A stretch of 64,000 nucleotides of DNA, taken from Gibbula magus (lineage: Eukaryota; Mollusca; Gastropoda; Trochida; Trochidae). A model generated the notes under the pieces. It was not told where the DNA came from. It was given only the letters and a program-made list of their open reading frames with translations, and did no database searches. The number at the start of each line of letters is the position of its first letter. Position 1 is the stretch's first letter. The stretch spans positions 15,047,061-15,111,060 of the forward strand of contig OW388304.1 of assembly GCA_936450465.1 (NCBI GenBank), in the 5' to 3' direction. This document shows, piece after piece, positions 6,943 to 64,000 of this stretch. The position numbers were made by a program, and so were the translations under genes.

Positions 6943-7878
6943 GTTTTTAGCCCATCAGGCCTGAAAGGCCCGATGGGCTTATGGCATGGCATGGCGTCCG
7001 GCGTCCGGCGTCCGGCGTCCGGCGTCCGTCCATCCGTCCGTAAACATTTCGCTTTTTCGACTTCTTCTCCAGAACCAATGACTCTACAGAGCTGAAATTT
7101 TATGTGCAGACTCCTTGGCCCATGGGGATTCTAAATTGTAGATTTCGTGACCCCCTGACCCCAAATGGGGTCACAGGGGTCACATCCTTAAAAACCTATT
7201 TTCATCGTCTTCTCCAGTTCCAAAAGGTCTAGAGAGCTGAAAAGTTGTGTGCAGACTCCTTGGTCTATGGGGATTCTAAATTGTAGATTTCGTGACCCCC
7301 TGACCCCAAATGGGGTCACAGGGGTCACATCCTTAAAAACCTATTTCAACTTCTTCTCCAGTTCCAAAAGGTCTAGAGAGCTGAACAGTTGTGTGCAGAC
7401 TCCTTGGCCTATGGGGATTCTAAATTGTAGATTTCGTGACCCCCTGACCCTAAATGGGGTCACAGGGGTCACATCCTTAAAAACCTATTTCATCTTCTTC
7501 TCCAGTTCCAAAAGGTCTAGAGAGCTGAAAATTTGTGTGCAGACTCCTTGGCCAATGGGGATTCTAAATTGTAGATTTTGTTACCCAATGACCCCAAATG
7601 GGGTCACAGGGGTCACATCGTTAAAAACCTATTTTCATCTTCTTCTCCAGTTCCAAAAGGTCTAGAGAGCTGAAAATTTGTGTGCAGACTCCTTGGCCAA
7701 TGGGAATTCTAAATTGTAGAATTGGTGACCCTGTGACTCCAAATACGGGACACAGGGGTCATGATCTAAAAACCTATTTTTTGCTTGTTAACAATGTATT
7801 ACTTGAGATAACTTAGATATTCAACCTTAGATAATAAATCAAATCCTGATGAGCTACAGAGCCCATGGCTCTATTTTT
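6943..7878 (+). mobile_element. Hairpin-ended, core-repeat element (pearl/Helentron-associated type), copy A
   Basis: The left end has the hairpin GCCCATC (6950-6956) / GATGGGC (6972-6978). It is followed by a GTCCG-rich run (~6987-7045), five core repeats, then a right end containing CCTGATGAGC and a 6-bp hairpin AGAGCC-cat-GGCTCT (7858-7872). The left GCCCATCAGG and right CCTGATGAGC are inverted but at different distances from the ends, an asymmetric inverted repeat. Hairpin ends, tandem cores and a tetranucleotide-type run resemble the bivalve pearl elements that have been linked to Helentrons; family assignment is inference. Confidence 0.65.
7060..7775 (+). repeat. Five tandem core repeats of 144-145 bp
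   Basis: The landmark GTGCAGACTCCTTGG recurs with its C at 7107, 7252, 7396, 7540 and 7685, giving a period of 144-145 bp. Each unit has TTCTCCAGTTCCAAAAGG, a GGGGATTCTAAATTGTAGAT block and the near-palindrome CCCCAAATGGGGTCACAGGG. A spurious open frame at 7249-7665 is just the repeat read through. Confidence 0.9.
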
Positions 7879-30500: not shown

Positions 30501-32706
30501 GTACTTCATTTCCATTCAAAGTTTCATCTTCATTCTCAAGCGCATTCAAGTGAATACTTGTATCTGTGGAAGTGTCAGGTGAGGGTTCATTTGGTGTGAC
30601 AATTCTTTCAAGGGAAGGAATAGCTGTAACAGTGACAGGAGTTACCTCAAACTGAGAATTCACAGATGAGTTCATAGACTTGGCAAGGCGCATACAATGA
30701 GAATGTACCTGCTGCAAAGTGTTGTACTGTGCTACTATACAAGTACCATTGATTGAAAGTTCACCAGTTTGGTTCCTTGAATGTGAATCAAACACATGAA
30801 ATGTGTCATTTATGGAGAGAACAGCAAAGGTTGCTTCACAAAATGTTACAAATGCATTACTGTGACTGTCAAATGATCGCCTCAAAGCAGCTTTTAAGGA
30901 CATGCTTGCATTGACATCATCATCATTTTGCGTGCTCATTAGACCAAAAAGAGTAGGGCTTAACCTCAGATGAAATATGGTTCCATTTATTTCAACATTT
31001 TCTGGAAGCTCTTCCACATTCAAATAAGCATCATTAATGGTAGAAAACTGTTGCAAAGATGCATACAATTCATTCCCATGAAACATGATTGTATTCAGGT
31101 CATTTGTGGTCCAGTTAATTGCATTTGTCAAGTGTGAATGTATCATTGATGACAAGCTCATGGCCAAACACTGCCTGCCAGCAAAGTCGCCAAATATTTG
31201 ATCTCCTTGGTGATACGAGGCATTGATCACAAAGCAATTTGATTCAGAGCTAGGAATACTGTCAGTGATAGATCTAGAAGTACTGGGTTGGCATTGGTCA
31301 TCACTGTTGGCTTCAATTTGTTGCAACGGATTATTTTGTTCAAGCCTTTCTTCGTAATTGCCGAGGGCAGATACTTCAGATTCATTGATGATATTGAGAT
31401 CAACCATATCATTTTGCATTTGATTAAGTTCAAGGCTTTTCTTATATTGTTTGAGGTCATTCACCTCGGGTAATTGCAAGGTAGTGTCAAGTTCAATTTC
31501 ATTGGCAAATGTTTGTTCAATTTCATTGGCATGTGTTTGTTCAAATTGATTGGCAAATGTTTGTTCAATTTCATTTGCAAGTGTTTGTTCAAACTGATTG
31601 GCAAACGTATGTTCAACTTCATTCGAGTGATTTCGGTCAATTTCATTTGAAAATGTTTGCTCAATTTCATTGGCATTCATTGGTTCAGATTGGTTCTGAT
31701 CTTTGCATTCAATTGCATTATCATACAAGGCTTCAGTGAGTATATCATTTACCATCTGCAACACTTGCAAGTGCAATTCTGACATAGTCAACGTAATAGG
31801 CAAATCTGGGAGGTCAGGACAAGTCTCATGAGTTTGTTTTGCAAATGTTTGTTCAATTTGATTGGCACTCATTGGTTGAGATTGCATTTGTGGCAACTGA
31901 TCACGAAGATCAGGGCTGTTTTTAGATAGGTTGAGGTCAGCCACCTCAGGTTCAAGTGATAAGCCAACTCTGGGATGCATTTGTTGCAACTGATCAAGAT
32001 CAGGGCTGTTTTTTTTTAGGTTGAGGGCAGCCACCTCAGGTTTAATTGATTTGCCAACTCTGGGATGCATATGTTGCAACTGATCACGAAGATCAGGGCT
32101 GTTTTTTTTAAGGTTGAGGGCAGCCACCTCAGGTTCAATCGTGAAGCCAACTCTGGGATGCATATGTTGCAACTGATCACGAAGATCAGGGCTGTTTTTT
32201 TTAAGGTTGAGGGCAGCCACCTCAGGTTCAATCGTGAAGCCAACTCTGGGATGCATATGTTGCAACTGATCACGAAGATCAGGGCTGTTTTTTTTAAGGT
32301 TGAGGGCAGCCACCTCAGGTTCAATCGTGAAGCCAACTCTGGGATGCATATGTTGCAACTGATCACGAAGATCAGGGCTGTTTTTTTTAAGGTTGAGGGC
32401 AGCCACCTCAGGTATCTTGCTCATATCATTAGAGAGCAACCTACGAGCAGTAATAGGTTGTCCCGAATCAGTGCTTAAGCTCCTGGTTTTAGCAATGAAC
32501 CCGTCAGGAGCACCAGGTTCATGCGGATCAGTGTTTACGCTGCTGGTTTTAGCAATGAACCCGTCAGCAGCACCAGGTTCATGCGGATCAGTGTCATTTG
32601 TGCTCCTGTTTTTAACGAGGACAGGTTCCTCAGTCCTGGTCTTCTTCTGGGCTGCACTCCTCCGCCAGTTCTTCTTCCTCGGCATCTGGAAATAAACGGT
32701 CAACAT
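24571..32706 (-). CDS. Helentron-type Rep/helicase/endonuclease polyprotein, intact
   Basis: A single 2711-codon frame without stops. Domains in order: basic start MPRKKNWRR; 31-residue tandem repeats (~99-230); NEIEQTFA-type octads (~345-410); a C76-like cysteine protease-type domain with GRQC (Cys ~513) and FDSHS (Asp ~640, His ~642); ~20-residue repeats with (D/N)KYA (~780-940); Cys-rich fingers CAVC...C, CSGDCQEDC, CHSC (~973-1055); HUH Rep motif PHVHCLFW (~1487) and Tyr motif YIVSYISK (~1705); PIF1 helicase with GGAGTGKS (~2068), IDEISMV (~2156), VGDFYQLPP, HKVQGLT and YVALSRV; endonuclease with VTETW and GDFNENA (~2646). The family nicks and copies one DNA strand by rolling-circle transposition. 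The closing endonuclease motif is SFHD, not the usual SDH. Translation may begin at the second Met (32685), just after TTTATTTCCAG, which looks like a splice acceptor. Confidence 0.92.
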   Translation of the reverse strand: MLTVYFQMPRKKNWRRSAAQKKTRTEEPVLVKNRSTNDTDPHEPGAADGFIAKTSSVNTDPHEPGAPDGFIAKTRSLSTDSGQPITARRLLSNDMSKIPEVAALNLKKNSPDLRDQLQHMHPRVGFTIEPEVAALNLKKNSPDLRDQLQHMHPRVGFTIEPEVAALNLKKNSPDLRDQLQHMHPRVGFTIEPEVAALNLKKNSPDLRDQLQHMHPRVGKSIKPEVAALNLKKNSPDLDQLQQMHPRVGLSLEPEVADLNLSKNSPDLRDQLPQMQSQPMSANQIEQTFAKQTHETCPDLPDLPITLTMSELHLQVLQMVNDILTEALYDNAIECKDQNQSEPMNANEIEQTFSNEIDRNHSNEVEHTFANQFEQTLANEIEQTFANQFEQTHANEIEQTFANEIELDTTLQLPEVNDLKQYKKSLELNQMQNDMVDLNIINESEVSALGNYEERLEQNNPLQQIEANSDDQCQPSTSRSITDSIPSSESNCFVINASYHQGDQIFGDFAGRQCLAMSLSSMIHSHLTNAINWTTNDLNTIMFHGNELYASLQQFSTINDAYLNVEELPENVEINGTIFHLRLSPTLFGLMSTQNDDDVNASMSLKAALRRSFDSHSNAFVTFCEATFAVLSINDTFHVFDSHSRNQTGELSINGTCIVAQYNTLQQVHSHCMRLAKSMNSSVNSQFEVTPVTVTAIPSLERIVTPNEPSPDTSTDTSIHLNALENEDETLNGNEVQHYKRVQKPKRKVSFRNQQNLKKKSMRKSRADKRPLDTMEKDRTKSGTKFSRYSIDAEYRDQLKQASTLKYATDISHRESVKAASINKYASNAEHHDAVIAAGIDKYATNTQYREALKSASINKYASNAEHHEAVIAAGIDKYANNAQYREALKSASIDKYASNETHRESVQSASIDKYASDEIHRESVKSASIDKYAMNPDHRASVKTSVKNQRLSKKQQQHSIQHVTEAFRLSVSEGPDYVCAVCHRKLFRKQVIQCKRDVYETKGEHASLAADRCITETYLHTCSGDCQEDCIIATGSSSKLWICHSCHQKVSQGKIPGESVVNNLQFEPIPAEIENLNELEQHLVSLHLPFMKLVALPKGAQNSVHGPVVSVPSNVVQSVNALPRSDSEDQLVQVKLKRKLTYKGHYKNQYVNKTKVLKALDYLHSNNKYYAHVELNENWVNPLPAIDEEDDTVLQSDEQCEVDIETDTDNVDLTREESDNHGMLLDTCLQPVDIGQEILDQHFDEITSIAPAEGNNPIRMLQDNDDEAKAFPCLFPKGGPIYHDNREEKLTLSRYLHCRLMNADTRCAQSIPYIFHAQYRSELEQVISKASIALRKGTGDRSRPNINADTLRNNESLQNFLKNDDGYKFLTPIRGTPPYWATTQKDLFAMIRQLGIPTWFCSFSSAETRWPEMIESILREDGDFRKAEELDWNEKCAILRKNPVTTARMFDQRFHTFLRDVIMSPAQPIGKIKDYFFRVEFQQRGSPHVHCLFWVDNAPKIDENPDDEVVDFVNNYVSCDMPNEDDDHELHEIVTSVQRHSKRHSKTCRKNGKECRFNFPRPPSQKTFVCRSETKTVEVPVVDCDNMNEDERRAVELKVKEAIEQNSQIMKREQAREILGKIWQALQDEDLSFDSVEDLFKQIGISQEMYETASQTLTKKTSVVLQRNSSDVWVNQYNPDLLRCWGANMDIQFVVDAYSCVVYIVSYISKAEKEMGLLLDHAQSEIRKEGNVDAKNAMRKIGTKYLNSREVSAQEAIFRVCTLDLKGCSRKVEFIPTVNRIRMSMPLKQLKEKVAKGDIDQDDIWLPSAVDKYRARPETAEFHDMCQAIFISQYRFLSKSEVSNVSDEKRRTPVIALLNNLGHVKKRTNTDPAVVRYARFSKDTDPEKFYQASIELFLPHTSENQMLPPQFETYEHFFNDGAIATASGEVETVKSIVERNRQEFETNASDMQQAQEILEASGSLEDAWSQICPQAEVDRLECQDIRQNAQVDDDNDTDDDQNIPDLLPHEERVSRTETMQTKVSKEEAQTILKSLNAKQKDVFYKLRQWCLDKRNGKDPEPFNVFLTGGAGTGKSHLVKAFYYEATRLLAPTLDRPDDTSVLLMAPTANAAFNIKGSTIHSGLKIGIAVSNQYQYLCEDALNTLRSKCGGVSILIIDEISMVDQKLLAYVHGRLKQMKQKDLPFGNVSILAVGDFYQLPPVKGVPLYKSVLGYDLWNDCFSVVELTEIMRQKDPEFAALLNRLRKAQKVDRNDVEANIETEDVALLSSRVTGENPDCLHVLSTNAEVDKYNMDMLDKVCTDIFDIEIEEFGKNQRTGDYEVLSTTSHRIGIDARVLLTQNVDTSDGLVNGAFGKVSHVATEHGKVTTVYVVFDNIDVGRKLRTKKTIPAGIPMNSTPICRHDEKSTYSKRMKRRFPLKLAWACTIHKVQGLTVKQAVVSLKNIFAPGQAYVALSRVTSLEGLIIKDFDPKTIFCSSDVSEAISNMPQYCQSVPNQNLDHMCHLVLHNIEGLPCHIDNLRSDKRFHSADFIFVTETWLSSIQHPALDGFMFRHKQRSQSYDESNPLFATLKSQSHGGVGVFWKNHCEFPPLQCRNLEYLTVFIPEKTTTVTVVYRPQTYKLAIFKKQLQVLLNELSEYSDKKIIVGDFNENALGTSSMQRFMQARNFTQIATNATTEAGTLPDHVYVTGINNASVDVLPTYFSFHDALEIFF
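29880..30370 (-). repeat. ~20-residue KYA repeat block within the Helentron protein
   Basis: About eight units have the pattern (S/G)I(D/N)KYA(S/T)N..(H/Y)RE.(V/L)K. In DNA the units alternate between two subtypes, one ending EHHDAV/EHHEAVIAAG and one ending YREALKSAS, so pairs of units were duplicated together. Similar basic repeats precede the Rep domain in other Helitron proteins; function unknown. Confidence 0.85.
32016..32412 (-). repeat. 93-bp in-frame tandem repeat in the Helentron N-terminus
   Basis: Four near-identical 93-bp units encode PEVAALNLKKNSPDL then RDQLQHMHPRVGFTIE or similar; two diverged units extend left to about 31910. The repeat keeps the reading frame and units are almost identical in DNA, so the expansion is recent. 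The same DNA gives open frames on the other strand by chance. Confidence 0.9.
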
Positions 32707-35832: not shown

Positions 35833-36830
35833 AAAAAATAGAGCCATGGGCTCTGTGGCTCATCAGGGTTTCATTGATTTACTATCTAAAGTTGAATATT
35901 TAATAGTTATTTAAGTTATCGTTTACAAGCAAAAGATAGGTTCTTAGATCATGACCACTGTGACCCCATATGGGGTCACAGGGTCACACAATCTACAAGT
36001 TAGAATCCCCATTGACCAAGGAGTCTGCATTTAACTTTTCAGCTCTCTAGACCTTTTGGAACTGGAGAAGAAGATGAAAATAGGTTTTTAAGGATGTGAC
36101 CCCTGTGACCCCATTTGGGGTCAAGAAATCTACAATTTAGAATCCCCATTGGCCAAGGAGTCTGCACACAACTTTTCAGCTCTCAAGACCTTTTGGAACT
36201 GGAGAAGATGATGAAAATAGGTTTTTAAGGATGTGACCCCTGTGACCTCATGTGGGGTCACAGGGTCACGAACTCTACAATTTAGAATCCCCATTGGCAA
36301 ATGAGTCTGCACACAACTTTTCAGCTCTCTAGACCTTTTGGAACTGGAAAAGAAGATGAAAATGGGTTTTTAAGGATGTGACCCCTGTGACCCTATTTGG
36401 GGTCACGGGGTCACAAAATCTACAATTTAGAATCCCCATTGACCAAGGAGTCTGCACACAACTTTTCAGCTCCCTAGACCTTTTGGAACTGGAGTAGAAG
36501 ATGAAAATAGGTTTTTAAGGATGTGACCCCTGTGACCCCTGTGACCCCTTTTGGGGTCATGGGGTCACAAAATCTACAATTTAGAATCCCCATTGGCCAA
36601 GGAGTGTGCACATAAAATTTCAGCTCTGTGAAGTCATTGGTTCTGGAGATGAAGTCGAAAAAGCGAAAAGTTTACAGACGGACGGACGGACGGATGCTGG
36701 ACACCATGCCATGCCATAAGCCCATTGGGCCTTTCAGGCCTGATGAGCTAAAAAGCGAAAAGTTTACGGACGGATGGACAGACGCCATGCCATAAGCCGA
36801 TAGGGCCTTTCAGGCCTGATGAGCTAAAAA
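35833..36830 (-). mobile_element. Hairpin-ended core-repeat element, copy B (inverted)
   Basis: Copy B is inverted relative to the copy at 6943-7878. It starts with AGAGCC-atg-GGCTCT (~35840) and GGCTCATCAGGG, has ~130-145-bp core units (TTTTGGAACTGGAGAAGAAG, ATGTGACCCCTGTGACC), then (GGAC)n and TTTCAGGCCTGATGAGCTAA. That last end is present twice (36721-36752 and 36795-36828), a local duplication of ~75 bp including the GGACGGAT run. Confidence 0.75.
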
Positions 36831-38346: not shown

Positions 38347-38960
38347 AAATAGGTTTTCAGATCATGACCCCTGTGACCCCCATTTGGAGTCACAGGGTCA
38401 CCAATCCTTCAATTAAGAATCACCTTGACCAAAGAGTCTCTACACAACATTTCACCTTTCTAGAGCTTTACATACTTTTAACCTTTTTTCATGACCCGTG
38501 ATCTAGATTGGGGTCAAGAAATCTACAATTTTGAATCCTCATTGGCCAAGAAGTCCTCACACAACTTTTCAGCACTATAGACCTTTTGGAAATGGAGAAG
38601 ATGAAAATAGGTTTTTAAGGATGTGACCCCTGTAACCCCATTTCGGATCATGGGGTTAAAAAATCTACAATTTAGAATCCCCATTGGCCAGGGAGTCTGC
38701 ACACAACGTTTCAGCTCTCTAGACCTTTTGGAATTGCAGAAGAAGATGAAAATAGGTTTTTAAGCATGTGACCCCTGTGACCCCTTTTGGGGTCATGGGG
38801 TCACAAAATCTACAATTTAGAATTCCCATTGGCCAAGAAGTGTTCAAAAAAAATTTCAGCTCTGTGAAGTCATTGGTTCTGGAGAAGAAGTCGAAAAAGC
38901 GGAAAATTCACGGACGGATGGACAGACGGAGGACGCCATGCAATAAGCCCATCATCGCAT
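38347..38960 (-). mobile_element. Core-repeat element copy C, truncated
   Basis: It contains diverged 145-bp cores (GTGACCCC, ATTTAGAATCCCCATTGGCC, TTTTGGAATTG), the terminal GGACGGATGGACAGACGG run and GCAATAAGCCCATCA. The AGAGCC hairpin end is missing; the copy joins the preceding element directly. Confidence 0.65.
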
Positions 38961-46180: not shown

Positions 46181-46189
46181 GTCCGAACT
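46181..46189 (+). repeat. 9-bp target-site duplication, left copy
   Basis: GTCCGAACT here is repeated exactly at 57235-57243, directly outside both inverted ends. Confidence 0.85.
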
Positions 46190-46255
46190 CATCCTCCACG
46201 CAGGCGGTCTGCGCACCTCGGACTTCCTCCTTCGTTGTGCTTACAGACCCCTGCC
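46190..46255 (+). repeat. Left terminal inverted repeat of the 11-kb transposon
   Basis: It starts CATCCTCCACGCAGGCGG. The conserved blocks TGCGCA (46210-46215) and GCTTACAGACCCCTGCC (46239-46255) match the right end; 23 bp lie between them here against 11 bp on the right. Confidence 0.8.
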
Positions 46256-46508
46256 ACTAGCCGAAATAACTGCACTGCTGGATTTGAGCAGTCAGTGCTT
46301 TTGTTGATCAAAACAAAATAAAATCGATGTTTGATCTTTCAAAAATCTAAACATGTGTAGCAAAGTCTTTATTTGTTATATTTGACCACTGTGTTTGATT
46401 TTGTAGTACTTTTGTTGTCGAACTCTTTGTTTCTTGCGTACGTTCTACGTTGGTAGGTAGTAAAGGGGTTTGCTTGTCAACAACTACACGTGAGCGTTCT
46501 ATTTTGAG

Positions 46509-48971
46509 ATGGACGCTAGACTTGCAAAGGCTGTTGAATCATACGATTCCGAGTTCGTTCTAAAACCAAAACAAGTAGAGGCACTACAGCACGTACTTTC
46601 ATATCCATCTCAAAGGCGTGATCTGATAGTTAATTTACCAGTTGGATACGGAAAGTCCATCGTTTACCAACTTTTGCCGGCTCTTTTACAAGGGAAGGAT
46701 GCTCCGTCTCCGGTAGTAATTGTTCTCTCACCACTGAACGTCATTCAGAAGGTATGAAAACAACAATAAACACAATAGTATAACTTTTTAAAGATAAATC
46801 TAAATTTAATCAGTCCAAATTATATTTTTTTTACTGTGTTTGGTAATTCAAGATGAAAATGGTTATCTGTGGATAGGCCTATATAAATATAATTGTAAGA
46901 TGATCATTTACTATTTTTTGTACCTATGTCAGAATATATCCATATCAGCTCATGTATGCTGTAGATTTTATTTTGCATTGAGGATTCAGCTATCAATTTG
47001 TTTTTATGTAATCTGGTAAAAAAAAAATATTTATAAAAATATGAAATGTTCAATGAACACATCTGAGAGATTTTGTTAATATAAAATATATGTAAATATC
47101 ATATGAGTTTACTGTTTAATTAAAAAGCTGATATTTTAAATTACAGGATCAACTCGCTACCCTGCAACAGCATGGAATCACTGCCTGCCGACTTGACATG
47201 CAAGGTAATCCTGAAGTTGGGGAGGAGGATTCAGCAGCAGCAGCATTCTTTCACATGGATGACAAAGTGTCACTTGAGGTGTGTTTTCACAATATACCAA
47301 TTTACATTTTCATATATATTTATACCAGGTTTTATGAAGCCAAGATGTGATTACAAAAAAAAGAAAAAACAAAGGAACAAATAATTCAAAACCCATAAAA
47401 AAACCCCTTAAATATGTCATTCACTCACTCATAATACTCTACAACATTCATTTATCCATCACAAGTTTTACATTTCTTTTCAAATTCACTAATCTTAGAT
47501 CCGTTCCAATATATTATCAATTGAATGATAATACTTTTAATTATTTTGGGAAATGTGGTAATGTAGGTCTTATCTTTATAAATTTGATATTTCAATAAAA
47601 GTAGTATTGAGTAAAAAGTATCATCTGTATGAAATTTGTTTACCTGATGGAGTATTTCATATATCTGAATTTTGGAAAAGATGAGGAAAGTAGAATAATT
47701 AGTCCTTTACCATATGTTTCAGGATGTAAGGGATGGACATTTCAGTGTCATCTTGTGTCATCCAGAGGCACTGTTGAATAGCAAGACTGGCAAGGATCTC
47801 ATGAAAGATCAAGATTTCCAGTCCAAGGTGGTTGCAGTTGTGATTGATGAGTGTCATATTGCAAGTGAATGGTAGGTTCACTTATTTGTTTCAAAAAACA
47901 TGTTTTGGGTAATAGCAATAATCTTTAAAATAACAAATAACTTAAATGAGTATAATATAACATCTGTATTATAATATCTCTATAATAAGATAATACAATA
48001 CTGGACATCTTTATTTATAGTATGCATATTATATACTGTGTTCATATGATGAAATGTGATTAAAATAATGTGAAGGAAAATATATACTTTATTTTGTTGA
48101 ATTATCTCATTATATTGTATTTTGCAGGGGCAAGGAATTCAGGAAGGCATACAGCAATCTGCACATTCTACCATGTATGTTTCCAACTGTTCCACACATA
48201 GCACTAAGTGGAAGTCTCACCGTTGAGGAACTTAAGAGTTTGCCATCTACCCTAGGATTTAAAAATCCAGTTATAATTGATGAATCCCCTGACAAATCCA
48301 ACATTTTTTTGTCTGTCAAGCATAAGATAGCTGGGAGAGACACTCAAACAATTTATGAGGACATTTTCATGAATGAATGTAATGAGTTACATTCCAATCC
48401 ATCTATATATCCTGTTACACTATTGTTCATTCCACTCTTTTACATGAGTAGAGCTTTGTCTTACCTTAAATATTTGTTTGGTTTTTGTGACATCACCTCA
48501 AGTGTTTATTCTGCTTTGTTTTCTAAGCAAAGCAAGTCAGTTTTTGACATTACAATTAATGAATTGAAAAAGGAAAATCCAAGAATCCGTCTAATTTTAT
48601 CAACATCAGCAATAGGTATGGGGTTTGATCCAGCTGCTGTTACCAGAATCATTCATGCTTCACCACCAAGAAATCTTTCAAAATATTTACAAGAAATTGG
48701 TCGTGCTGGTCGACGGGGTCAGAAAGCGTCTGCTTTACTATATTTTAATAAGTCAGATCTTCGAGCAAATCTCCCAGGAATAAATAATGATATCGTTGAT
48801 TATTGCAATGAAAATGGGTGCTTGAGAAATAACATGCTTCAAGTATTTGGTTTCGAAAAAAATTTTAACATGAAAGATTGTGAATGTTGTAGTAATTGTG
48901 TGAAAAATTGTGATTGTGATGTTTGTTTGGCAAGTTCCTTTGATGAAATAATGTTCAAAAATGAACAGTGA
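46509..48971 (+). CDS. RecQ-type SF2 DNA helicase, transposon-borne, 4 exons, 455 aa
   Basis: Exons 46509-46751, 47147-47278, 47723-47871 and 48128-48971 join in frame with GT/AG introns. Residues: Walker A LPVGYGKS (43-50); DECH box (167-170) followed by SEWGKEFRKAY, the RecQ-specific stretch after motif II; SGS (202-204) at motif III; TLLFIP; motif V STSAIGMGFD; motif VI QEIGRAGRRGQ (363-373); and a C-terminal Cys cluster CECCSNCVKNCDC (~426-437) like the RecQ zinc-binding module. Winged-helix and HRDC domains are absent, so it is a short core helicase. AATAAA lies at 48983-48988, 12 bp after the stop. It likely unwinds DNA during transposition of the surrounding element. A host RecQ is unlikely given the TIRs and partner gene. 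Confidence 0.88.
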
Positions 48972-49874
48972 ATGAAACTCTGAATAAAACCAGGTAATAT
49001 AGATTTCAAGTTCATATATATACATTTCATATGACATTGTTGAGAGAGATGACAGAGATACTAGTAGTCTTAAGGTATAAACATAAAGTAGACTGATCAA
49101 TGAGACTGTAGCATTTATGGATGCTTCAATCAATATCAAGTAGATAGATTGACACATAAATTTTACATCATCTCAAATTATAATATATATCCTTTGTTAA
49201 GAAGTATAACAATACCTTAGTATCTTTCTAAGCCAGTGTTTTATATAATATTTCTTATGTCAGATCAGATCTCCCTTCAATTAGTGAAGATGTTGTCTGT
49301 TATTGTAGTGGTATTGGATGTTTGACAGCTGTTGATAGCTAGAGAGATGAAAGCATTCTGTCATGTGTAAGAACTTAAAGGAAAACAACACAGTTGTTTA
49401 AGATATCATATTTCAGCATTTATTTTGTCAGATGATCAACAATGTCTAAATATAAGTTAATTTAAATGCAATTAAAATATCCTGTTTACAAATCATTATG
49501 TTTTTATTTCATCAGATCAGATGTTTACATTTACACTTTCATGATTATACATATGAATACAGTTGTCATTGTGTCAAACAATGTAATAAAACTTGGTGCA
49601 ATTTTACTATCAACATATTTATTGAAATAAATACTTTGAGTGTTAAGCTATGGGTAGGATTTCATTATCTGATATATAGAGAAACAGGCTTTTGAAGCTT
49701 TACAGCTTTTGACTAACACAACCTGGAGGAGAAAACTTACCTAAATATTTCTAGTAAGTAACTTTAATCATTTGTTTACCTTTGCAAAACCACTTTTCAA
49801 CATGGTTAAAATTTCCATCATTTCAGGAACACAATTATATTAGAATTGTCCATATTTAGACATCCAAGATGCAA

Positions 49875-49915
49875 AATACAGAGCCATGGGCTATGCAGCT
49901 GATTAGGATAATATT
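49875..49915 (+). repeat. Fragment of a core-repeat element end
   Basis: CAGAGCCATGGGCTATGCAG followed by CTGATTAGGATA resembles the AGAGCC-hairpin end of copies A, B and D. Nothing further of the element is recognisable. Confidence 0.4.
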
Positions 49916-50712
49916 AATAATTTGATGTTGCTGGTTCTTGAGAAGTACCTTAAAGATTTCATGTAAATATTCTTCTGTTTCAAAACAGGTTATTCATATG
50001 CCTGGATTTTCCAAAACAGCAGAAATGTCAATATTTTATATCAAAGTTCAAACAAAGCTGTCTTGGTTTAGATATACAAGTACAAAAGCATCATTATAGT
50101 AACATCATTGTATTTGAACATTTTCCTTATATTTACAGGAGTAAATTCTGATAGACAATAGTTCTTTCCATTACAGTATAACTAACCAATTATTGCATTT
50201 TCATTATATTGATCATCAAGTGTTGGTATTTTTGTTGTTAATGCTGAAATATTATTATAAACCATTTATGTCATGAAGAAGGAAATATTAATTACCATGA
50301 ATGTTGTCATGGAGGAATATTCACTGTCATAATCTGTGAACACTATCAAAGAGAACAATGAAGCCCATAATATACAGCTTCTAACCTGTATGCATATATG
50401 CAAAGCAGCATATCTGTAGTTTCTCATGAAACTGACAAACAAAATTTCTAATAAACACATGTTTTTGATAATCATTTGTTTTTGTGTTCATTCATCGATA
50501 TTTTTAGTGACATATTGATAACCGTTCAGAGTAAACTTTTCTCTATTTTACTGCTTAATAGATGACTGTAATAATATCATATTTCTTAATTGTCTGACAT
50601 GTGTACTACTTTTTCATACGACATTTAAAATGAATAAATGCACAAACTTATTTACAGTGTATCCAACAAAGACATGAAATGGTATCATCACATCAAATGT
50701 TTTCTTAACAAG

Positions 50713-51298
50713 CATAAAAGTGAGCGTGGCTCGCTAATACCCCCGACCCTTCATGTGTAGGTAATCTCTATGTATCATAAAATAAGTTTGACATGATTTC
50801 ATGTAGTTCCATCAGATTATATATTTGAATAATGTATAATGTAATTATCAGTGTTGAATCTAAAACATATCTGTCTCACCGTCATCTCAAAGGAAGGAGG
50901 ATTTAAGGAAAATTAGTAGGTGAGAATAGGAAATGATCACCTTAAAATTGCTTATATTTCTGTACTTCACCTCTCTAGTATATTACTATTATGGACTCTC
51001 AAGTGCATGATAAACATGCTTTCGATTTGTTTAGATATTCTAGTAGCAACAAATTAGTTCAATAACATAAGAAAATTACCTTTACAATGATTAATATTGA
51101 TTCACCAAGTATGATAAAAACATTTATCCAAAGATGAGGGAAGGTACGCACTATCAACAATTACAACTGATCGCAGGTCGCCATGACCACACATATCTTA
51201 TAATGTTAAACAATGCGTCCTCCACACTCAATCTCCAGAAAAAATAATAAAAATGAATACATTTTTAAGCATATGCTACTTCTTGCTATGTCCATAGG

Positions 51299-51329
<31 letters not shown>

Positions 51330-51555
51330 TGGGGTAACTTACATGTAATAAAGGTGTTAATCTGAAAATAATAATGCTTGTCACACACATTTTTTAGGGG
51401 GATCGAGACAAAATGTACAAACTTTGATCCCCTAGGTGCAAGGAACCTCCCTACAAACTTTTAATCATTTGGACAAAAAATGTTTATGGATGAATAGACA
51501 GATGGAATCCTTGGTATTAATATATACCCCTGGACCGTTGGTCTGGGGTATAAAA
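50713..51555 (+). mobile_element. ATACCCCC-hairpin repeat inserted between the two transposon genes
   Basis: It starts with GAGC-gtg-GCTC and TAATACCCCCGACCC. It ends with ATACCCC-tggaccgttggtct-GGGGTAT (51525-51551). The body has no coding sequence and contains a ~30-bp G run (51301-51330). It lies ~80 bp beyond the stop codon of the minus-strand transposase gene, so it may have displaced that gene's polyadenylation region; no AATAAA is visible there on the minus strand. Confidence 0.6.
51301..51330 (+). repeat. Poly-G tract
   Basis: Nearly uninterrupted run of about 30 G, apt to form G-quadruplexes and prone to sequencing length error. Confidence 0.8.
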
Positions 51556-51635
51556 AATGGCTTATAAAAAGATATATCTTTGACTCGCACATCATGATAA
51601 ATACTGTACCACAATTCAAACAATTTTTTAAACAG

Positions 51636-54600
51636 TTATATTGGAACGTATCCCACCAGAGCTTCATTTTCAACATCATCCTCGTGGACATGAACAGTTT
51701 GTCCCCATGTCAGTCTTTGCAAAATATGAGAGATTCTTGCTGATAGTCTTGTTTTAGTGAATTTAGCAAAGGGGGCCTGGGTAGACACATGAAAACCATC
51801 ACACTTTCTCCCAGAAGTGAATCTGAAAGGCCTGACTCTTCTCAATGTTGTTTTAATGATGTCTGAATCTGCTGTGGATATTCTGTTACAGTGTCTGTTT
51901 GATTTGGGTGAAATTCCCAGTGATGATGATACATGTTCAGTCACAGTACAAATTCCGTGTGCAGCAGATGTGGCACGCAAGATGGCCTTGTCCGTCTTAT
52001 TTGCACCAAGTTGTTTGATTAGCTTTTTCTGATTTCTGACAGAATGTTCTTGGGCCAAATCAGCTTCAACACTATTGCCACATCCACCTTTAAGGTTGAC
52101 AAATGCACAATCTAGCATTCTAGACCTCTGAAGAGGGGACAGGCATAAAGACTGTCGAACAAAGAGAATGTTTTCAACCATATATTTGCTGAGATGGGAA
52201 TGTGAAAAGAAGAATGGGATGTTGTATTTGGCATTGATAATACATCTCTCCCCATCAGCCTCCTTGGCAGTGTCATCCAACTGCATGAGATGCAAACCCC
52301 AATGGCAAACATTCATGAAGTAGTTGTATACTTCATCAACTTCTTCCTCTGGGTGGTCATCAGAAGGCTCCTGAACATAGCCATATGTCTTGATGATGTC
52401 ACTTAACACTTTCCTTGTTGTGGCTTCTTTGGCTTCTTTTGTTTTGTATGTCATTTCACTGATTTCGTTTTTTTCCAAATATTCCAGTGCTTGCTCCTTG
52501 ATCAGATGTTTAGTCAGTGAAATCAACAGATCATGATGAGCTTGAAAATTTGTCTTTACTTTACCAGTGACGGCACCAAGTTGAAGAATAACTTTCAAAT
52601 TGTAGAGAGTTCCTTGCTGTCTGAACGTTGAGCTTTTGTACAGTGACTTGTAAGCTTTCTGAAAATCAAATTTAGAAAGATATAGACAATAATATAATTA
52701 TATTAGTATCATGGACATATTTTTGGCACACTTCCTGTTATAAGTAAGACTCACTTATTACTACCCTAGTGTAAGGACCAACATGTTGCTTATTTTCATT
52801 TGTACTTCCTTAGGGTTTCCATATAAGCAGCCAAATACTCAGCTAATCCAAAACTATCTACCGAAGCAAAGAAATGCTATAATGTCAAGGTCCTTGAAAA
52901 GTGCAACATATGATTATTGAAAAAGAGAATAAATATTTTTACTAAATATTAATAATCGGTAAAATTGGTACACAAAATTCATAGAAATTTTCATTCTGGA
53001 GAATAGCATGCAAATATGTTTTATTTACCTCAAGAAAATCTTGCTTGTTGTGCCACCATTCACAAACAATTGGTTGAAGATGCTCCAACTTTGAGGTGGC
53101 GTCAGGAGACAGGCAACGGAGTTCCTTTGCTTCTTGTAATCTTACTCTCGTCAACTGATCACCACCTACAGCAACTTGCAATTCTTCCAGTGCCTGTATG
53201 TTTCCTTAAAAAAAAAAGCTCATCTGATTGTTGATTGTTTAAAATTTAAATTTGAGATTTTTACAAATTAGGATCTTTGTTGTTTTTTTAACCATTAAAG
53301 ATACCAATTTGGTTGATAGCACATTTTAATGCAGATATATCATTATTTTAAGGGCAATAATGTTCATGCATGCATATGTTATAGTTTATGTTTGACAGTT
53401 AGTTGAACATTTTAATTTTTCGAGAATAATCATTTCTTCCAAAATAAATAATAATACCAATTCATGTGTCAAATAAAAGAAATTTCCATTTTTTATTATC
53501 AATCACTGACCATGTGAAGTTCTGAAGATGTTCTGAAGTTGTTCCTCATATGTGTCCATGATATCCAGACAATCCTCATGTTTGGCCTCATTCTTGAACT
53601 GGAGTGGAAGTTGAAAGACTTGAGATTTTCGGGATGCATCACCGTAGGTACCATGACGAATGTGAGTTGGTATGAACTTCTTCATCCATTGAAATTCTGG
53701 GATTTCCTGAATTTATCAAATGTGTTAATTAGAATTAACTCATTTCAGTTTTAATTATGACAATTATTCACCATTGTTAAGGATAGTCTTGTTAAGTGTA
53801 AATATACATATTAAAATTAGAGCATTGGCTCTGTAGCTCATCTGGAATAAGGTTGAGGACTTGCTGGTGAGTTATTGTTTAAAACTGCTTAAATCAGATC
53901 AGAGATTTATTTTATTCAATTATGCAATTATAACTGCTGGATAAGGTAAGTCTACACAAGAACAATGGATCTAGACTAGTGACTTTCATTAAGGTCTGAT
54001 GAGCTAAAATTGCCTCTATATATGCTAAAGACAAATCATTTTACTGAGAGAATTCTGCCAATGAGAATGCTATATGCGTTTGTCAGCTTGGATCTATCAT
54101 CTTCTGATAGGAACATATCCTCTGTCTTGGGGATGTAACCATTCGGAGTATTGTCCATATCGGGTCGTGTTGACTTGCAGAAGATGATATTGCTGGCAAA
54201 TAGGTGGAGATCTCTGTGTTGCCTATCTGAAGCTTGATGTGCAGTCCGGACAAATACATCAAGATTATCTCCTGAAAGAAAAGAACATAAGATACATGGT
54301 CTTTAACATTCCAAAATAGAAATTTGTAGATAATGTTAATATTTGACAGCAGCTTTTCAATAAGTACTTAAGGTTACACATTTAAATATACACATGATTC
54401 CACTACCATAATGAGCTACACATTCAGATATCATTTTGTGACACACTCTTTAACTTCTAAAATAGTAATGTTAAGAAAGAAATACCTGTGATCTTGATAA
54501 GAGGGTTTTCCTTCAAAATGCCAATAATGCTGTCATTGCATTTGAGTCCAAAGTCATCCTGCATCGTCAGTTTAGTTGTGGGGCTCATCATAAGGCCAAG

Positions 54601-57108
54601 GCGGTTCAGAACAGTCAGTGCCTGAGGTAAGATGCAATTATTTAATATAAGGATACGAAAATTGTTTTGCATATGTATAAATATTACAACAATTATTATT
54701 ATAACAAACTGCTTTCAATATCATATAAAGTTCAGTACCAATTTTAATGTTTAAACATTAATGTAAATTTGTGAGATATATGTGCAAACATGCGTGAGAA
54801 AGAAGCATAGGTTAAAAGGAAATGATGTGATTATATGCCTCTGGTTGGAATTGAACCAACGTCTTAAGACTACCATTCAAAGACTTCTTTCACATCCAGG
54901 AGAAGTGAAGCTTGGGTTAGAACACAGCAATAGAGTGCCAGACTCTACCATGACATACAGATAATTTAGGTCATTTAAGTAAAAAATGTGCCAAAAAGTA
55001 AATTCATTGCAATACCAATTTCTCTTTCGATTTATCATTTTGAGTCATGGAACAGTAAAAGGAAATGTACTGTGTATGTTTTTAGAGTTTTATTCATATA
55101 ACATATAAAGTTTTATCCATAAAAACATCAATTCGTTATTGTATTTCACTATTCCTCAACGATTAATCAGTTAGCCCAAGGCTAGTGAAAAAAGGTTTTG
55201 GCAAGTAAAATGTATTATTGACCCCTGAATCAGATTTTGAATCTGCTTTTACATCAATGTAAACACAGTACATTTATGGAGTAACAGCAGCAGCAGTATA
55301 GAACAGAGAAGACAGGGTTAAGAAGAGTTTGACATGCAAGCTACATGCTATGTTAGAAATAAGAAATAAGATGAATATACAGATATTAATATATGATAGT
55401 ATGTAATTAGTCTTACACTCAGACTATGAAAAAAGTATTTATCCTCAAAATATCACCATTTTATTAAATATTGAAAAGGAGACTGTAAGAAATGGTATTT
55501 TGTATAAAAAAAGGCTCCTTTTCAATTTTTGTTTGTTTTTTGTACAGTCTAAGTGTTAGACTAGTATGTAATAAACAATTATTTTTCTTTTACATAAGAA
55601 TCAAATCTCTCACCTTGTTAAAGGAATAATACAAGCTAGTCATAAGTGTCATAATTACATTGTATTAGCTTTAATGTCATTACCACTTCCTTAACGTTTT
55701 ATCTGAAATAGAGAAATATCATCATCATCATCATCATCATCATTCAAAATTTAATGTCAACGTAAAGAATCTGAAATTCAACAGAAATGCATGGTTAAAT
55801 GTTCACATACTGAATCATCAATATTTCCCTCCAAAGCAATACATGTCGTCATCTTATGCCATGCAGACAGCATAGGGTTGCGGCTCTTCATTAGCATAGA
55901 ATAGGCTGATGCCATCACTGCAATATGATTCTTGTCCAGAGTCAATCTCGGACTAATAGCAATAGCTCGAAATATCTGTACAAGAAATGGAACTCTGAAA
56001 AAAATTAACAAAATTGTTTACAAAATTTAAATCCAATTACTACCAGAAGTTACAAATCCTCAAAAAACAACCAATACTCAGGTTCAGCAGCTTCTCTGTA
56101 AATACCTAATTTTATTGGAATGTCATTCACGGTGGCATTATCGCTGAATGAATGTATATAATTTACAAATATTATTATTTCAAGTATGCTGTACGAATAT
56201 TACTTATCATGAATACTATCGCCTTGTTCTCAATGGTATTATCTTAAATGTTTCAACAAAACATGGTTTCATTTTCTATCAACTTTCATCAAAATTATTT
56301 TTGTAATTCAATAGTGGTATGATATGCTGACATGTTGTATGCACCTTTCTTTCATTTCTTTATAAATTTCTCTGATGATGTCATCACATTCAGTGAGACG
56401 GTCCAAGTTGTTGCATTGCCACAGGACTGATGCAAACGGCGCTGTTTTTGACCCCAAAGAATTTACTTCATGGACAAAGGCATCCAACATTCTATATTTC
56501 ACCTCTTTTAACAGAATATTGTGTTTCAAAATAAGTATTGATGCCCCTTCATAATCCCCTCTGGACATACATGAAACCAGATTAGAATCAACCCGTGACT
56601 GATTATCTTGTGTGACTGTACTAGACACCTGAGATGCAGTCGTCTCGATAGCATGATGATATTCGCAGTCTTCTTTAACCATATAATCATGGTCAAGGGA
56701 ACGCCTCACTTTCTTACCTGGTCCTAAATGTACATTTTCATAACCATCTAAATCTAAATCTACATGAACACTTGATACACCTTCTGTTGCCAATGGACTT
56801 GAAGCCTCTCTTTTACTGCTTTCATTAACTTTCAATTCATTACCACAACTTGTTAATCCATTAATAATTGTATCCCTAAACTCCCAAGCCTTCTCAAGTT
56901 TATGATTGCAGTTCCGACACAGTCGCCCCGTCTCGATCAGAGTTGTCGGGATGTCCCCACCACAAATCCAAGAAAGTTTTTCACTTAATTTTCCCGTAGC
57001 TGCCTTCTTGCCATTTAACAAAAAATAAGTACCAGTTTTTGAGGAACTTTTACAAGCAAAACAAAAAATAGGGAAAAAAACTGCCGGCGTTAATGTAGGG
57101 GATGACAT
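51636..57108 (-). CDS. DUF6589-type putative transposase with N-terminal zinc motif, 7 exons, 901 aa
   Basis: Exons 56345-57108, 55811-55994, 54486-54621, 54045-54271, 53511-53706, 53029-53204 and 51636-52658 total 2706 nt and stay open. The first donor is a weak GTGCAT; the others are ordinary. The N-terminus has FCFAC (Cys 16, 19) and LCRNC (Cys 64, 67), a ZAD-like zinc motif that probably binds DNA. The middle has GDNLDVFVR (362-370) with HLHLFASNIIF, and GGDQLTRVR (516-524), followed by KSLYKSSTFRQQGTLYNLK; these are the signature blocks of DUF6589 proteins as I know them. Asp 363 and Asp 518 are the candidate catalytic acids of an RNase H-like transposase fold; a third acid was not assigned. 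The gene converges on the helicase gene inside one TIR pair. An intron (53707-54044) holds a repeat insertion. Confidence 0.82.
53815..54010 (-). mobile_element. 195-bp internally deleted core-repeat element in a transposase intron
   Basis: It begins AGAGC-att-GGCTCTGTAGCTCATC and ends AAGGTCTGATGAGCTAAAA, the two termini of copies A and B, with only ~140 bp of unrelated sequence between and no core. It lies wholly in the intron between exons 4 and 5 of the DUF6589 gene, 34 bp from the exon 4 donor. Confidence 0.6.
55718..55743 (+). repeat. (ATC)n microsatellite
   Basis: About eight ATC units in the first large intron region of the DUF6589 gene. Confidence 0.9.
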
Positions 57109-57181
57109 TGCGTCGCCATGTTGTTTACAATGTACCTCTGAGGTGAAGGTCGTCGGTCAAAGGTTAACGGCAGAAGTTCCC

Positions 57182-57234
57182 GGCAGGGGTGTGTAAGCTT
57201 GACTTGACATGCGCACGCCGCTGCTTGGAGGATG
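57182..57234 (-). repeat. Right terminal inverted repeat of the 11-kb transposon
   Basis: Reverse-complemented, it begins CATCCTCCAAGCAGCGGC, then TGCGCA and GCTTACACACCCCTGCC, matching the left end block by block. It lies ~75 bp upstream of the transposase start codon. Confidence 0.8.
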
Positions 57235-57243
57235 GTCCGAACT
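57235..57243 (+). repeat. 9-bp target-site duplication, right copy
   Basis: GTCCGAACT, identical to 46181-46189. Confidence 0.85.
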
Positions 57244-58735: not shown

Positions 58736-61700
58736 TGTTTGCCCATGACTCTTAAGTGAACTTAAAAAATCACACACAAATGGACCCCTACATTATGTTT
58801 CTCATGATTAGGATAAAACGGTTAATATTTTCATATGAAGTTGTAAGGTAGAACATGTTATGCTGTCATTTCCACTTCAGTAGATGTTAACATCAATTAG
58901 ATTGCATACATGATAAATGCGTTATGTTATTATGAATATTCAAGAAAAAACTAAAACATGCTCATTTTCCGACCCCTATACGACGTTTTCGATGTTTGAA
59001 GCTTAACTATCAACTTTTTGATAAAAGCAATCAACACAAAAGTTGTTGCTCTTGAAATTTTACATACGCACGTGTAAATTATATTTCAATTGCTTATTTA
59101 GAGAATAAATTATGTATATTTGAACTTTGTTAAAAATGGCGATTTTTCAGTATTCGCAATATTCAATGGACTGTCAAGTGTAAACCGTTATAGATCTATG
59201 TTCGAAAAATATTACGTTTAATAAACTATCTTTTCGCTTTAAAATGATATATCAATCATGTCTGTATCTGTATTGATTAAAGAACAATAATTCTCCAAAG
59301 AAAATTCCCCTCGAAAAATTTCAATTTGTTTTTTAACTGGTTAAATTGTGCCCAAACTATCAACTTTTATATGATAAAATATGTAGTGGATTTGCAAAGA
59401 TAACATTGTTAAACACATTGCAAGAAGTAGATTACAAATAAAACTATTTTAAACAGAGTTATGTCCCTTTAGATTTAAAGGATGAAAATTCCCTTTTCAA
59501 AAAGTTTAATTTTTAAAATGCTGTAACACGTAAACCTTTCATTGAAGAGCGTTGGTGTATAGATTCATATAAACAGCAATAATTCAACTTCACAATGAGC
59601 TATACAATGTGTATGTATGTGTTGCCGTTATTTAGGAGAAGATTTTTGAAGAAGAGTACTCTCAAATTTGCGAAATTTCACCACATTTTCAGTTTTTTCG
59701 AAATAGCAAAAAATCTATTATTACGGCCGAAAACGGTTATATGCCTAATCGATAGGGAATAGTGTTGGCCACATTTTGGTGAAAGTTTTTTGAAATTATC
59801 TTGTTTAGTTTTCGAGCTATTCAGGTTTGAAATTTACACTTTTTTCAAAATTGTCAGATTTCAAGTACTCACTGAGAAAAAAGTATTGCGACTTGGTACC
59901 CGTGAGGGGATTCCCGATATATGTAATGCCTCAGCTACATTATGTGAAAATATCAGCTCTCTAGTGCTTATATCTTCAGAGGAGAAGATTGTCAAAGGTG
60001 CATGGGGTCCGAATATTTTAAAAAGTTTTTTAAATCAAGATGGCGGCGAAACCACATGACATACATATTCGTGATGATTGACTTTTTTGCTCGCATGGTT
60101 ATTGTGAATCATTTAAAAAAAGTTTCAAGTCTCTAGCTGCATTTTTAAGTTTTTTCCCATGTTAAAAATTGACATTCAGATTCGAACTGGACCCTAACTG
60201 GCTGAACCAATTGGACCCAAAAGATACGCTGCATTACTACATAGTAAGGGCTATCAGCCTGTAAAATTTGGTTGCTGTAGCTGCAATCCTTCTTGTAGAA
60301 GTCGATTCCACAAAAATCTTGAAATAATAAAAATAAAAATAAATATAGTCACAAGTGACGATAAAAGGATTCAGCGCATACATGAGACACTTATGTTGAA
60401 TGTCTTTGGCATTGTCCATCTTTCAAAACAAGTTGCAAGTCTGTAGAGTTATTTTAAAAGTTTTACCCATGTCTCTAAGTGAAAATCGAAAAGTCACACA
60501 CTAATTGACCCCTACATTATGTTTATCATGATTATGATAAAACAGTTAATATTTTTATACTAAGGTGGAACATAGGAAATGTTGTGCTTGTATTTCCACT
60601 TAAGTAGATATAATCATCATATAGATTGAATACATAATTAATGAGTAATATTGTTTTAAATATTCAAGAAAATACTAAAAAATGCTTATTTTCGGACCCC
60701 TATACGACATTTGCGATGCTTGAAGCTTAACTATCAACTTTTTGATGAAAGGATTCAATACAAAAGTTGTTGCTCTTGAAATTGTGCATACGCCCGTATA
60801 AATAATGTGCCACTTCTTCATAAAGTTAAGCACTTTTGCACGTTTGAAGTTTGTCGAAAATTAAGATTTTCGAAAAAAATCAATTTTTAAAATGCTGTAA
60901 CCCCTAAACTATTAAATGTAGAACTTCGGTTTATAGATTCATATAAACAGCAATGATTCAGCTTTAAGATGAGCTATAATATTTGTCTTTATGTGTTGCT
61001 GTTATTTAGGAGAAGATTTTTGAAGACGCGTACCCTCAAATTTGCGAAAGTTCATGAAAATTCCATTTTTTTTAAAACTGCTTAAATTATGCCTAAACTA
61101 TGAACTTTTATATGATAATGTTCTGTAGTGGAGTTGTAAAGGTAACTATGTCAAAGAGATTGCAAGAAATAGAATACTAATCAAAGAAGTTCTGACAGAG
61201 TTATGTCCCTTTAGAATCAAAGGTCGAAAATTACTTTTTTAAAAAGTTCAATATTTAAAATGCTGTATCTCATAAACTATTGAATATAGAGATTTGGTTT
61301 ATAGATTCATATAAACAACAGTAACTCAGCTTTAAGATGAGCTATACTATGTATCTGTATGTGTTGTGGTTATTTAGGAGAAGATTTTTGAAGACGAGTA
61401 CCCTGATATTTGCGCAACTTCACCTGTTTTTCAGTTTTTTCGAAATAGCAAAAAATCTATTATTACGGCTGAAAACCGCTATATGCCTAATCGACGGGGA
61501 ATAGTGTTGGCCACATTTTGGTGAAAGTTCTGTGAAATTATCTTGATAAGTTTTCAAGATATTGAGGTTTGAAATTTGCACTTTTTTCGAAATTGCCAGA
61601 TTTCAAATACTCACAGTAAAAAAAGTATTATGATTTACAACCTGTGAGGGGATTCACAACATATATAATGCCTGAAGTACATTAGGTGAAAATATCAGCT

Positions 61701-64000
61701 CTCTAGTGTTTATATCTTCAGAGGAGAAGATCGTCAAAGGTGCATGGGGTCCGAAATTTTTTTAAAGTTTTTAAAATCAAGATGGCGGCGAAACCAGGTG
61801 ACATACAGATTCGTCATGATTGACTTTTGTGTTCGTATGGATATTGTGCATCTTTTAGAAAAAGTTGCAAGTCTCTAGCTGCATTTTTCATTTTTTTCCC
61901 ATGTTAAAAAATGACTTTTAGATTCGAACTGGACCCTAAATGGCTGAACCAATTGGGCCCAAAAGATACGCTGCACAACTACATAGTAAGGGCTATCGAC
62001 CTGTAAAGTTTGGTTGCTGTAGCTGCAATCCTTCTTGTAGAAGTCGATTCCACAAGAATCTTGAAATAATAAAAATAAAAATAATAATAAACACGCCAAT
62101 AACAATAAGGATTCAGCCTTATGGCTGAATCCTTAATAATAAACACGCCAATAACAATAAGGATTCAGCCTAATGGCTGAATCCTTAACTAGGATTGACG
62201 CGTCAATACTTAGGTCTTCAAGACTTCTGCTTGACCTTGAACTCCATGCTGGACTCCCGGTTATTTGCCAGTTAGTATGCTTTAAAATGAGCTATCAAAC
62301 ATGTATCTATCTTCAGTAGTTATTTTACAAAAATTCTCCAAAGACAATGACCCTCTTTAAATGTAACAATTGATTATTAATGGACCCCTACATGATCTTT
62401 CTCACGATTAAGACAAAATGGTTAATATTTTCATACAAAGGTGTCACATAGACAAACTTGTGGTTTAATTTCCACTAAATTAGATGTAACCAACTCTCCC
62501 TTTGAACATACAGTAGAAATACACACTTTTAAAAAATGACCATGTTCAAGGACATATTTTCAAAAATTTAGGAAGAAATTCAAAATTCGGCGAAAACAGT
62601 CCTCTCAAGAATTCGTTTATCTTCAAAATGAGCTATCACACATAGCTGTATGTGTTGCCGTGAATTAGGAGAAGACTTTCAAAGACGCGTACCCTCAAAA
62701 CCGCGAAAGTTCACAAAATTTTCAGTTTTATCGAAATAGCAAAAAATCTATTATTACGGCCGAAAACAGCTATAGGCCTTATCGATGGAGAATGTTGTTG
62801 CCCACATAGTGGTGAAAGTTTTGTGCAAATATATTGATTAGTTTTCGAGATATTAAGGTATAAAGTTTTAACTTCAAGGGGAGATAACTCGCGAAAGAAG
62901 TCGAAAATGAAAAATCGGCCACAACAGTCCTCTCAGGAATTCATTTATCTTTAAAATGAGCTATCACACATAGCTGTAAGTATTGCCGTGAATTAGAAGA
63001 AGATTTTCAAAGACGCGTACCCTAAAAACCGCGAAAGTTCACCAAAAATTCAGTTTTTTCGAAATAGCAAGAAATCTATATATACGGCCGAAAAAATGAC
63101 ATTAACTTTTTTTGTGGGGAATGTTGTTGCGCACATTTTGGTGAAAGTTTTAAGAAAATATATTGATTAGTATTCGAGTTATGAAGGTTTAAAGTTTTAA
63201 CTTCAAGGGGAGATAACTCGCGAAAGAAGTCGAAAATCAAAAAAGTGGCTCGTTAAAATCTAAGTTGGGTCACAGGCTATCATCCCTGAAAGTTTGAAGA
63301 AAATCGGTCAAGCCGTTACTGCTGGAGCGATGACACAAAAAATCTGCAAACAATAATAATAATAACTAGGATTGACGCGTCAATACTTAGGTCTTCAAGA
63401 CTTCTGCTTGACCTTGAACTCCATGCTGGACTCTCGGTTATTCGCCAGTTATTATGCTTTAAAATGAGCTATCAAACATTTCTCTATCTTCAGTAGTTAT
63501 TTTACAAAAATTATCCAAAGACAATGACCCTCTGAAAATGGAACAATCGCTTATTAATGGACCCCTACATGACCTTTCTCACAATTAAGACAAAATGGTT
63601 AATATTTTCATACCAAATTGCAACATAGAAAGTATTGTGCTTTAATTTCCACTTAAGTAGATGTAACCAACTCTCCCTTTGAACATACAGTAGAAGAACA
63701 CTTTTAAAAAATGACCATGTTCAAGGACATATTTTTAAAATTTTAGGAAGAAATTCAAAATTCGGCCAAAACAGTCCTCTCAGGAGTTCATTTATCTTCA
63801 AAATGAGCTATCACACATAGCTGTATGTATTGCCGTGAATTAGGAGAAGACTTTTAAAGACGCGTACCCTCAAAAACGCGAAAGTTAAAACAAAAATCAG
63901 TTTTATCGAAATAGCAAAAAATCTATTATTACGGCCGAAAATCGCTATAGGCTAAATCGATGAGGAATGTTGTTGCCCACATAGTGGTGAAAGTTTTGTG
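58736..64000 (+). repeat. Tandem array B of the hairpin-junction unit family; continues past the edge
   Basis: Two older, diverged units (about 58736-60375 and 60440-62090) are followed by two units close to those of array A, starting at 62189 and 63366 (period ~1177 bp), the last cut by the window edge. The older units end with GGACCCTAA(C/A)TGGCTGAACC, AAGATACGCTGCA and CTTGAAATAATAAAAATAAA. Junction palindromes are TAGTCAC-aa-GTGACGA (~60350) and AAGGATTCAGCC-ttat-GGCTGAATCCTT, the latter repeated twice at 62110-62185. AAGATGGCGGCGAAACCA occurs in both older units. Confidence 0.8.

Follow-up and report, generated by a model that had tools for sequence, protein, structure and literature searches.

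The 64-kb window analyzed here is the whole stretch of DNA from 15,047,061 to 15,111,060 on chromosome 16 of the trochid gastropod Gibbula magus (chromosome numbering follows the xgGibMagu1.1 assembly; PMC10394393). Window positions 46190–57234 are occupied by a transposon of 11,045 bp that carries two genes, one for a RecQ-like helicase and one for a DUF6589 protein. It is flanked by a perfect 9-bp direct repeat, GTCCGAACT, at 46181–46189 and 57235–57243, which we assign as its target-site duplication (TSD). An original prediction made from the sequence alone had given 46181–57243 as the element; the complete unit of about 11 kb and the direct repeat outside inverted ends are both upheld, but that span takes in the two copies of GTCCGAACT, and we set the bounds at 46190 and 57234 from the ends, the TSD and the similarity to many other copies, which begins at 46190. 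The imperfect terminal inverted repeats (TIRs) measure 26 nt on the left (46190–46215, + strand) and 25 nt on the right (57210–57234, − strand), and align as CATCCTCCA.GCAG followed by TGCGCA common to both ends. A second motif, GCTTACA.ACCCCTGCC, is present subterminally in both ends, as GCTTACAGACCCCTGCC on the left (46239–46255, +; positions 50–66 from the end) and GCTTACACACCCCTGCC on the right (57182–57198, −; positions 37–53 from the end), and is a putative transposase site. We consider it very probable that this is a complete and recently mobile AcademH-type DNA transposon, probably an autonomous one.

The two genes converge on a 2.7-kb spacer, in which there is a G-rich homopolymer tract of 38 bp (51297–51334, 89% matches). 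Their exon bounds are DNA-based gene models in which all nine introns are GT-AG and neither frame has a stop ahead of its last codon. The helicase gene, on the + strand, has four exons encoding 455 aa: exon 1 (46509–46751) with the Walker A motif GYGKS, exon 2 (47147–47278), exon 3 (47723–47871) with DECH, and exon 4 (48128–48971) with QEIGRAGR, a Cys-rich C-terminus and the stop codon at 48969–48971. The protein matches Pfam DEAD (E 7.6e-13) and Helicase_C (E 3.1e-10), with ResIII also above the cut-off, and its best sequence matches in the PDB are WRN and other RecQ enzymes. By sequence its Cys-rich C-terminus resembles the RecQ zinc module; the zinc domain fell just under the cut-off in two relatives, and the window helicase had no match to it.

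The DUF6589 gene, on the − strand, has seven exons encoding 901 aa. Exon 1 (56345–57108) has an N-terminal CxxC...CxxC arrangement that is weakly zf-AD-like by Pfam, and is followed by exons 2 (55811–55994), 3 (54486–54621), 4 (54045–54271), 5 (53511–53706), 6 (53029–53204) and 7 (51636–52658). The alignment places three putative catalytic residues in this gene: D363 in GDNLD, which is completed by the start of exon 4, D518 in GGDQLTRVR of exon 6, and E765 in EADLAQEHS of exon 7. The match to Pfam DUF6589 (PF20231) is strong (E 1.3e-40). These results agree with the prediction of two convergent genes whose eleven exons (four plus seven) join without a stop, with its recognition of a RecQ-like helicase from GYGKS, DECH and QEIGRAGRRGQ, and with its recognition of DUF6589 blocks in the second gene.

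The DUF6589 protein is most likely the transposase of the element, of the DDE class, as models of its relatives are DDE-like and the acidic residues D363, D518 and E765 are invariant in the DUF6589 alignment. Modelling, which had been proposed as a check for an RNase H fold, was carried out for two DUF6589 relatives rather than for the window protein, and gave a predicted RNase H-like core with a helical insertion in both. The best structural alignments of these models were with DDE enzymes, P-element transposase being at the top for both, and DDE transposases and integrases scored above unrelated rows, at sequence identities of no more than 12%. One comparison had no rows for RAG1, Transib and ISCth4 and the other none for retroviral integrases, absences that exclude nothing. 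Most alignment rows have, by eye, ExxH with a conserved His and not the C/DxxH that is described between the second D and the last E in the hAT/P/MuDR/Kolobok/Dada group (PMC9587614). No NCBIfam family is assigned to two DUF6589 relatives, and PF20231 had no matches in any of 14 control genomes. The transposase role that had been predicted for DUF6589 is thus supported by predicted fold and residue conservation. The literature searched does not describe DUF6589 as a transposase under the names "DUF6589" or "PF20231", the latter occurring only in an unrelated paper, and the predicted fold appears to be the newest point of this analysis.

An alternative is that DUF6589 is an accessory protein and that the helicase, or a host enzyme, performs strand transfer, as in a helicase-driven replicative element. 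The retention of a RecQ-like helicase within the unit would suit such a scheme, and the roles of both proteins are assigned from sequence and fold rather than biochemistry. However, TSDs of fixed length together with TIRs are the general mark of DDE strand transfer, the only matches of the helicase protein above the cut-off are to SF2 helicase families (DEAD, Helicase_C and ResIII), and the DUF6589 models are DDE-like above unrelated rows with three invariant acids. We therefore regard an accessory role for DUF6589 as very unlikely.

The original prediction had also proposed a search for further copies of the ends. Among the 1,470,318,725 bases (140 contigs) of the G. magus genome, the left 120 bp of the element has at least 40 matches (40 of 185 candidates were scored) and the right 120 bp likewise at least 40 (40 of 140 scored). 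Pairing of ends gave seven long copies: the 11,045-bp element of the window, two on chromosome 8 (10,911 and 10,258 bp), and one each on chromosomes 3 (8,131 bp), 2 (10,911 bp), 14 (11,745 bp) and 7 (8,359 bp). Three places with one good end or a distant second end (C14:978844, C4:30934945 and C9:38099369) are not counted as long copies. In addition there are many short, internally deleted copies, of 179 to 838 bp in the first pairing set.

The duplications are consistently of 9 bp. Thirteen copies were examined in the first set, of which 12 had both ends; the TSD was 9/9 in 11 of the 12 and 8/9 in the other, a short chromosome 7 copy with altered ends (C7:1047477) being left out of the count. 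The right-end set comprised 22 loci, three of them unpaired, and its 19 pairs, four of which were also in the first set, had TSDs of 9/9 (six), 8/9 (eight), 7/9 (one), 6/9 (two), 4/9 (one) and 3/9 (one). Over the 27 distinct paired copies the duplication was therefore 9/9 in 13, 8/9 in nine and worse in five, that is, 8/9 or better in 22 of the 27. Most short copies retain about 74 bp of the left end and about 54 bp of the right, reaching just beyond the subterminal motif, which points to these ends as the sites needed by the transposase. Two short copies on chromosome 2 (L028, G000:C2:30184371; L027, 30354546) share a TSD, reverse-complemented between them, and perhaps go back to a single insertion inside an inverted duplication. 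The right flank of the 10,911-bp chromosome 2 copy (L043, beyond G000:C2 39155484) has a piece identical to positions 16–40 of the right end, without the terminal bases.

Two observations show that the element has moved, and recently, as a TIR-bounded unit: a nearly identical pair of copies on two chromosomes, and exact paralogous empty sites. The chromosome 2 copy differs from one chromosome 8 copy at a single position in 10,911. Segmental duplication was rejected as the origin of this pair, since their flanks are unlike, as are their TSDs (tctacagaa and tgacattac). The chromosome 14 copy sits inside repeated sequence that resembles, and may be, a remnant of a Tc1-type transposase. Its joined flanks with one TSD match two further chromosome 14 sites over 300/300 bases, and two more places at 99%. 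Each of the two empty places fetched has one GGTGTGGGG, with 199/200 of the left flank and 197/197 of the right identical. These places are the pre-insertion state, in paralogous units rather than an allele. Within about 1.6 Mb (G000:C14 15.93–17.56 Mb) there are four units at 99–100% and one at 93% of the host sequence of this copy.

The presence of introns is the sole point in favor of reading the locus as two ordinary host genes between chance repeats. Against this stand unrelated insertion sites whose TSDs differ, copies with a single difference between them, and the empty sites, and we reject that reading, leaving it a probability close to nil. As for the autonomous cut-and-paste element that had been predicted, TIR-bounded mobility is established by the differing 9-bp duplications, the chromosome 2 and 8 pair and the empty sites; cut-and-paste itself we infer from the class of the enzyme.

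The expectation that few copies would be as complete as that of the window did not hold in G. magus, where both genes are open in four of the seven long copies (window, chromosome 14, chromosome 2 and the first on chromosome 8). The chromosome 3 copy keeps the helicase and has partly lost DUF6589, that on chromosome 7 keeps DUF6589 and lacks helicase exons 3 and 4, and both genes are broken in the second chromosome 8 copy. The chromosome 7 copy combines a broken helicase with a perfect TSD; it may have shed the exons once inserted or been moved in trans. Both genes look to be selected for function, because their dN/dS values are low and exons are less diverged than other parts of the element. 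By the Nei-Gojobori method, dN/dS was 0.16–0.46 for the helicase (window, chromosomes 14, 2 and 3) and 0.17–0.30 for DUF6589 (window, chromosomes 14, 2 and 7), values for which each pair supplied between 3 and 22 changes of either sort. Between the window and chromosome 2 copies the exons differ by 1.3% and other parts by 4.4%, a clear difference; against the chromosome 14 copy it is slight (0.84% and 1.04%). Relative to both of these copies, the outermost 100 bp on each side are free of substitutions.

The association of DUF6589 with a RecQ-like helicase extends beyond this family. PF20231 has 96 matches in G. magus, counted as pieces and with the family of the window included. A RecQ-like helicase lies within about 6 kb, in convergent orientation, at seven of the eight DUF6589 loci fetched from outside that family (L059–L063, L065 and L066), while the eighth has, by eye, a reverse-transcriptase-like frame in its place. 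The same helicase queries had no match in 113 kb of other G. magus sequence, a control limited to that stretch. The eight loci were hand-picked and some are mutually close (e.g., L061 and L066), and so represent fewer than eight independent lineages. The seven convergent pairs point to more candidate DUF6589/RecQ transposon families in this genome. The best matches of six of the seven neighboring helicases are the Mytilus RecQ-like proteins P0098 and P0099, outside the clade of the window helicase; because these six are closest to another RecQ clade, the helicase partner may have diverged anciently or been exchanged.

In other mollusks, judged from locus tags, the two genes are adjacent in Patella caerulea (SNE40_014313, helicase; SNE40_014314, DUF6589) and nearly so in Mactra antiquata (ACF0H5_004551 and ACF0H5_004553); the Pinctada imbricata relatives are not neighbors (helicase FSP39_024864; DUF6589 FSP39_007984 and FSP39_006061). 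Trees were made of 33 helicases (32 picked from 120 listed, plus that of the window) and 29 DUF6589 proteins (28 picked from 53, plus that of the window). In both trees Mactra falls with Ruditapes and Patella with Argopecten, the latter two being joined by an oyster in the helicase tree, and the two trees do not resolve the nearest neighbors of the window proteins alike. We think it likely that PF20231 serves as DDE transposase in a large lineage of animal transposons, its nearest known folds being those of the P element and hAT, and that a RecQ-type helicase in convergent orientation belongs permanently to this machinery; one snail genome would then contain several diverged lineages of this two-gene unit, of which at least one has moved recently.

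We propose that the DUF6589 protein would recognize the ends through the terminal repeat and the GCTTACA-containing motif, perhaps via its zinc-finger-like N-terminal part. Excision would then fall to the RNase H-like core (D363, D518 and E765), which has a predicted helical insertion of the kind seen in the P element, hAT, Transib and RAG1; the core would also join the excised element to the target, whose strands would be cut 9 bp apart, and repair of the gaps would yield the 9-bp duplication. The RecQ-type helicase would be a dedicated partner, probably unwinding excision, strand-transfer or repair intermediates, and may be needed for movement. The same proteins would probably mobilize the short deleted copies in trans.

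Elsewhere in the window, an uninterrupted frame of 2,711 aa (24571–32706, − strand) has Helitron_like_N, PIF1, DUF6570 and Exo_endo_phos and a Herpes_teg_N match, and is apparently an intact Helentron/Helitron-type polyprotein. Tandem arrays with a 144–145-bp unit occupy 7054–7780, 35952–36627 and 38509–38863, the first being related to the later ones, by eye, as reverse complement. Immediately to the right of the element, long direct repeats of several families, as much as 300 nt in length, recur at irregular intervals over 58738–63997. There was no match in a search of a phage collection or in an Rfam scan at the gathering threshold.

For a class of transposon that carries a helicase, the element and its relatives provide intact copies that are almost the same in sequence, ends that are defined, short deleted derivatives and an empty site, making testable both the role of the helicase and the pairing of helicase with a 9–10-bp stagger and of nuclease with one of 3–4 bp. 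The predicted fold would offer a function for PF20231, which is of unknown function in Pfam. Recent movement of an Academ-type element in a gastropod also contrasts with a survey of mollusks which found Academ almost confined to bivalves (PMC10294476).

Comparison with known systems favors AcademH. Helitrons have no TIR and no TSD and encode Rep/PIF1 domains; the element does not fit this type, as TIR and TSD are both present and the Pfam scan found Rep/PIF1-type Helitron domains in neither transposon protein. Kolobok elements target TTAA, whereas the TSDs here are 9 bp and unrelated in sequence, none of the 12 in the first pairing set being TTAA, and KolobokH was rejected on TSD length. More broadly, the element could belong to another helicase-bearing superfamily, KolobokH or a new one, with the same working and another pedigree. 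Favoring this, a RecQ helicase accompanies the DDD/E transposase of KolobokH, the RecQ gene of a red-alga Kolobok lies on the complementary strand (both PMC9587614), and DUF6589 is placed with Academ by features rather than against Academ reference proteins. On the other side, the same source reports KolobokH from fungi only, and a helicase with a 9–10-bp TSD is how AcademH is described (PMC10045372), so that we hold another superfamily to be improbable.

The P element, Hermes (hAT) and Transib/RAG1 are alike in the predicted RNase H-like core with helical insertion, the P element scoring best, and differ in their identity of at most 12% to the DUF6589-relative models; to our knowledge none has a RecQ helicase, and their TSDs are of other lengths. 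AcademH reportedly occurs in animals and fungi, going by the title of a 2020 paper by Kojima. Within the element we find each feature of AcademH that was examined: a helicase (DEAD and Helicase_C, with WRN/RecQ matches in the PDB), imperfect TIRs of 26/25 nt, a TSD of 9 bp (9/9 in 13 of 27 copies and 8/9 in nine more, with one 9-mer at the empty sites), and a transposase that is DDD/E-like by the predicted fold of two relatives and the invariant acidic residues. Academ is counted among the DDD/E superfamilies (PMC9587614), and in print AcademH has TSDs of 9 or 10 bp and AcademX of 3 or 4 bp, a difference tied to the encoded helicase or nuclease (PMC10045372). AcademX, of the same superfamily by the latter source, was rejected, since the TSD here is 9 bp and no nuclease family scored above the cut-off in either protein (Pfam; ResIII is a helicase-fold domain). 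The AcademH label of the original prediction fits these features, the transposase having been judged by its Pfam family and its predicted fold, and the element fits a new AcademH-type family that differs in its host, a trochid gastropod, and in having been active recently.
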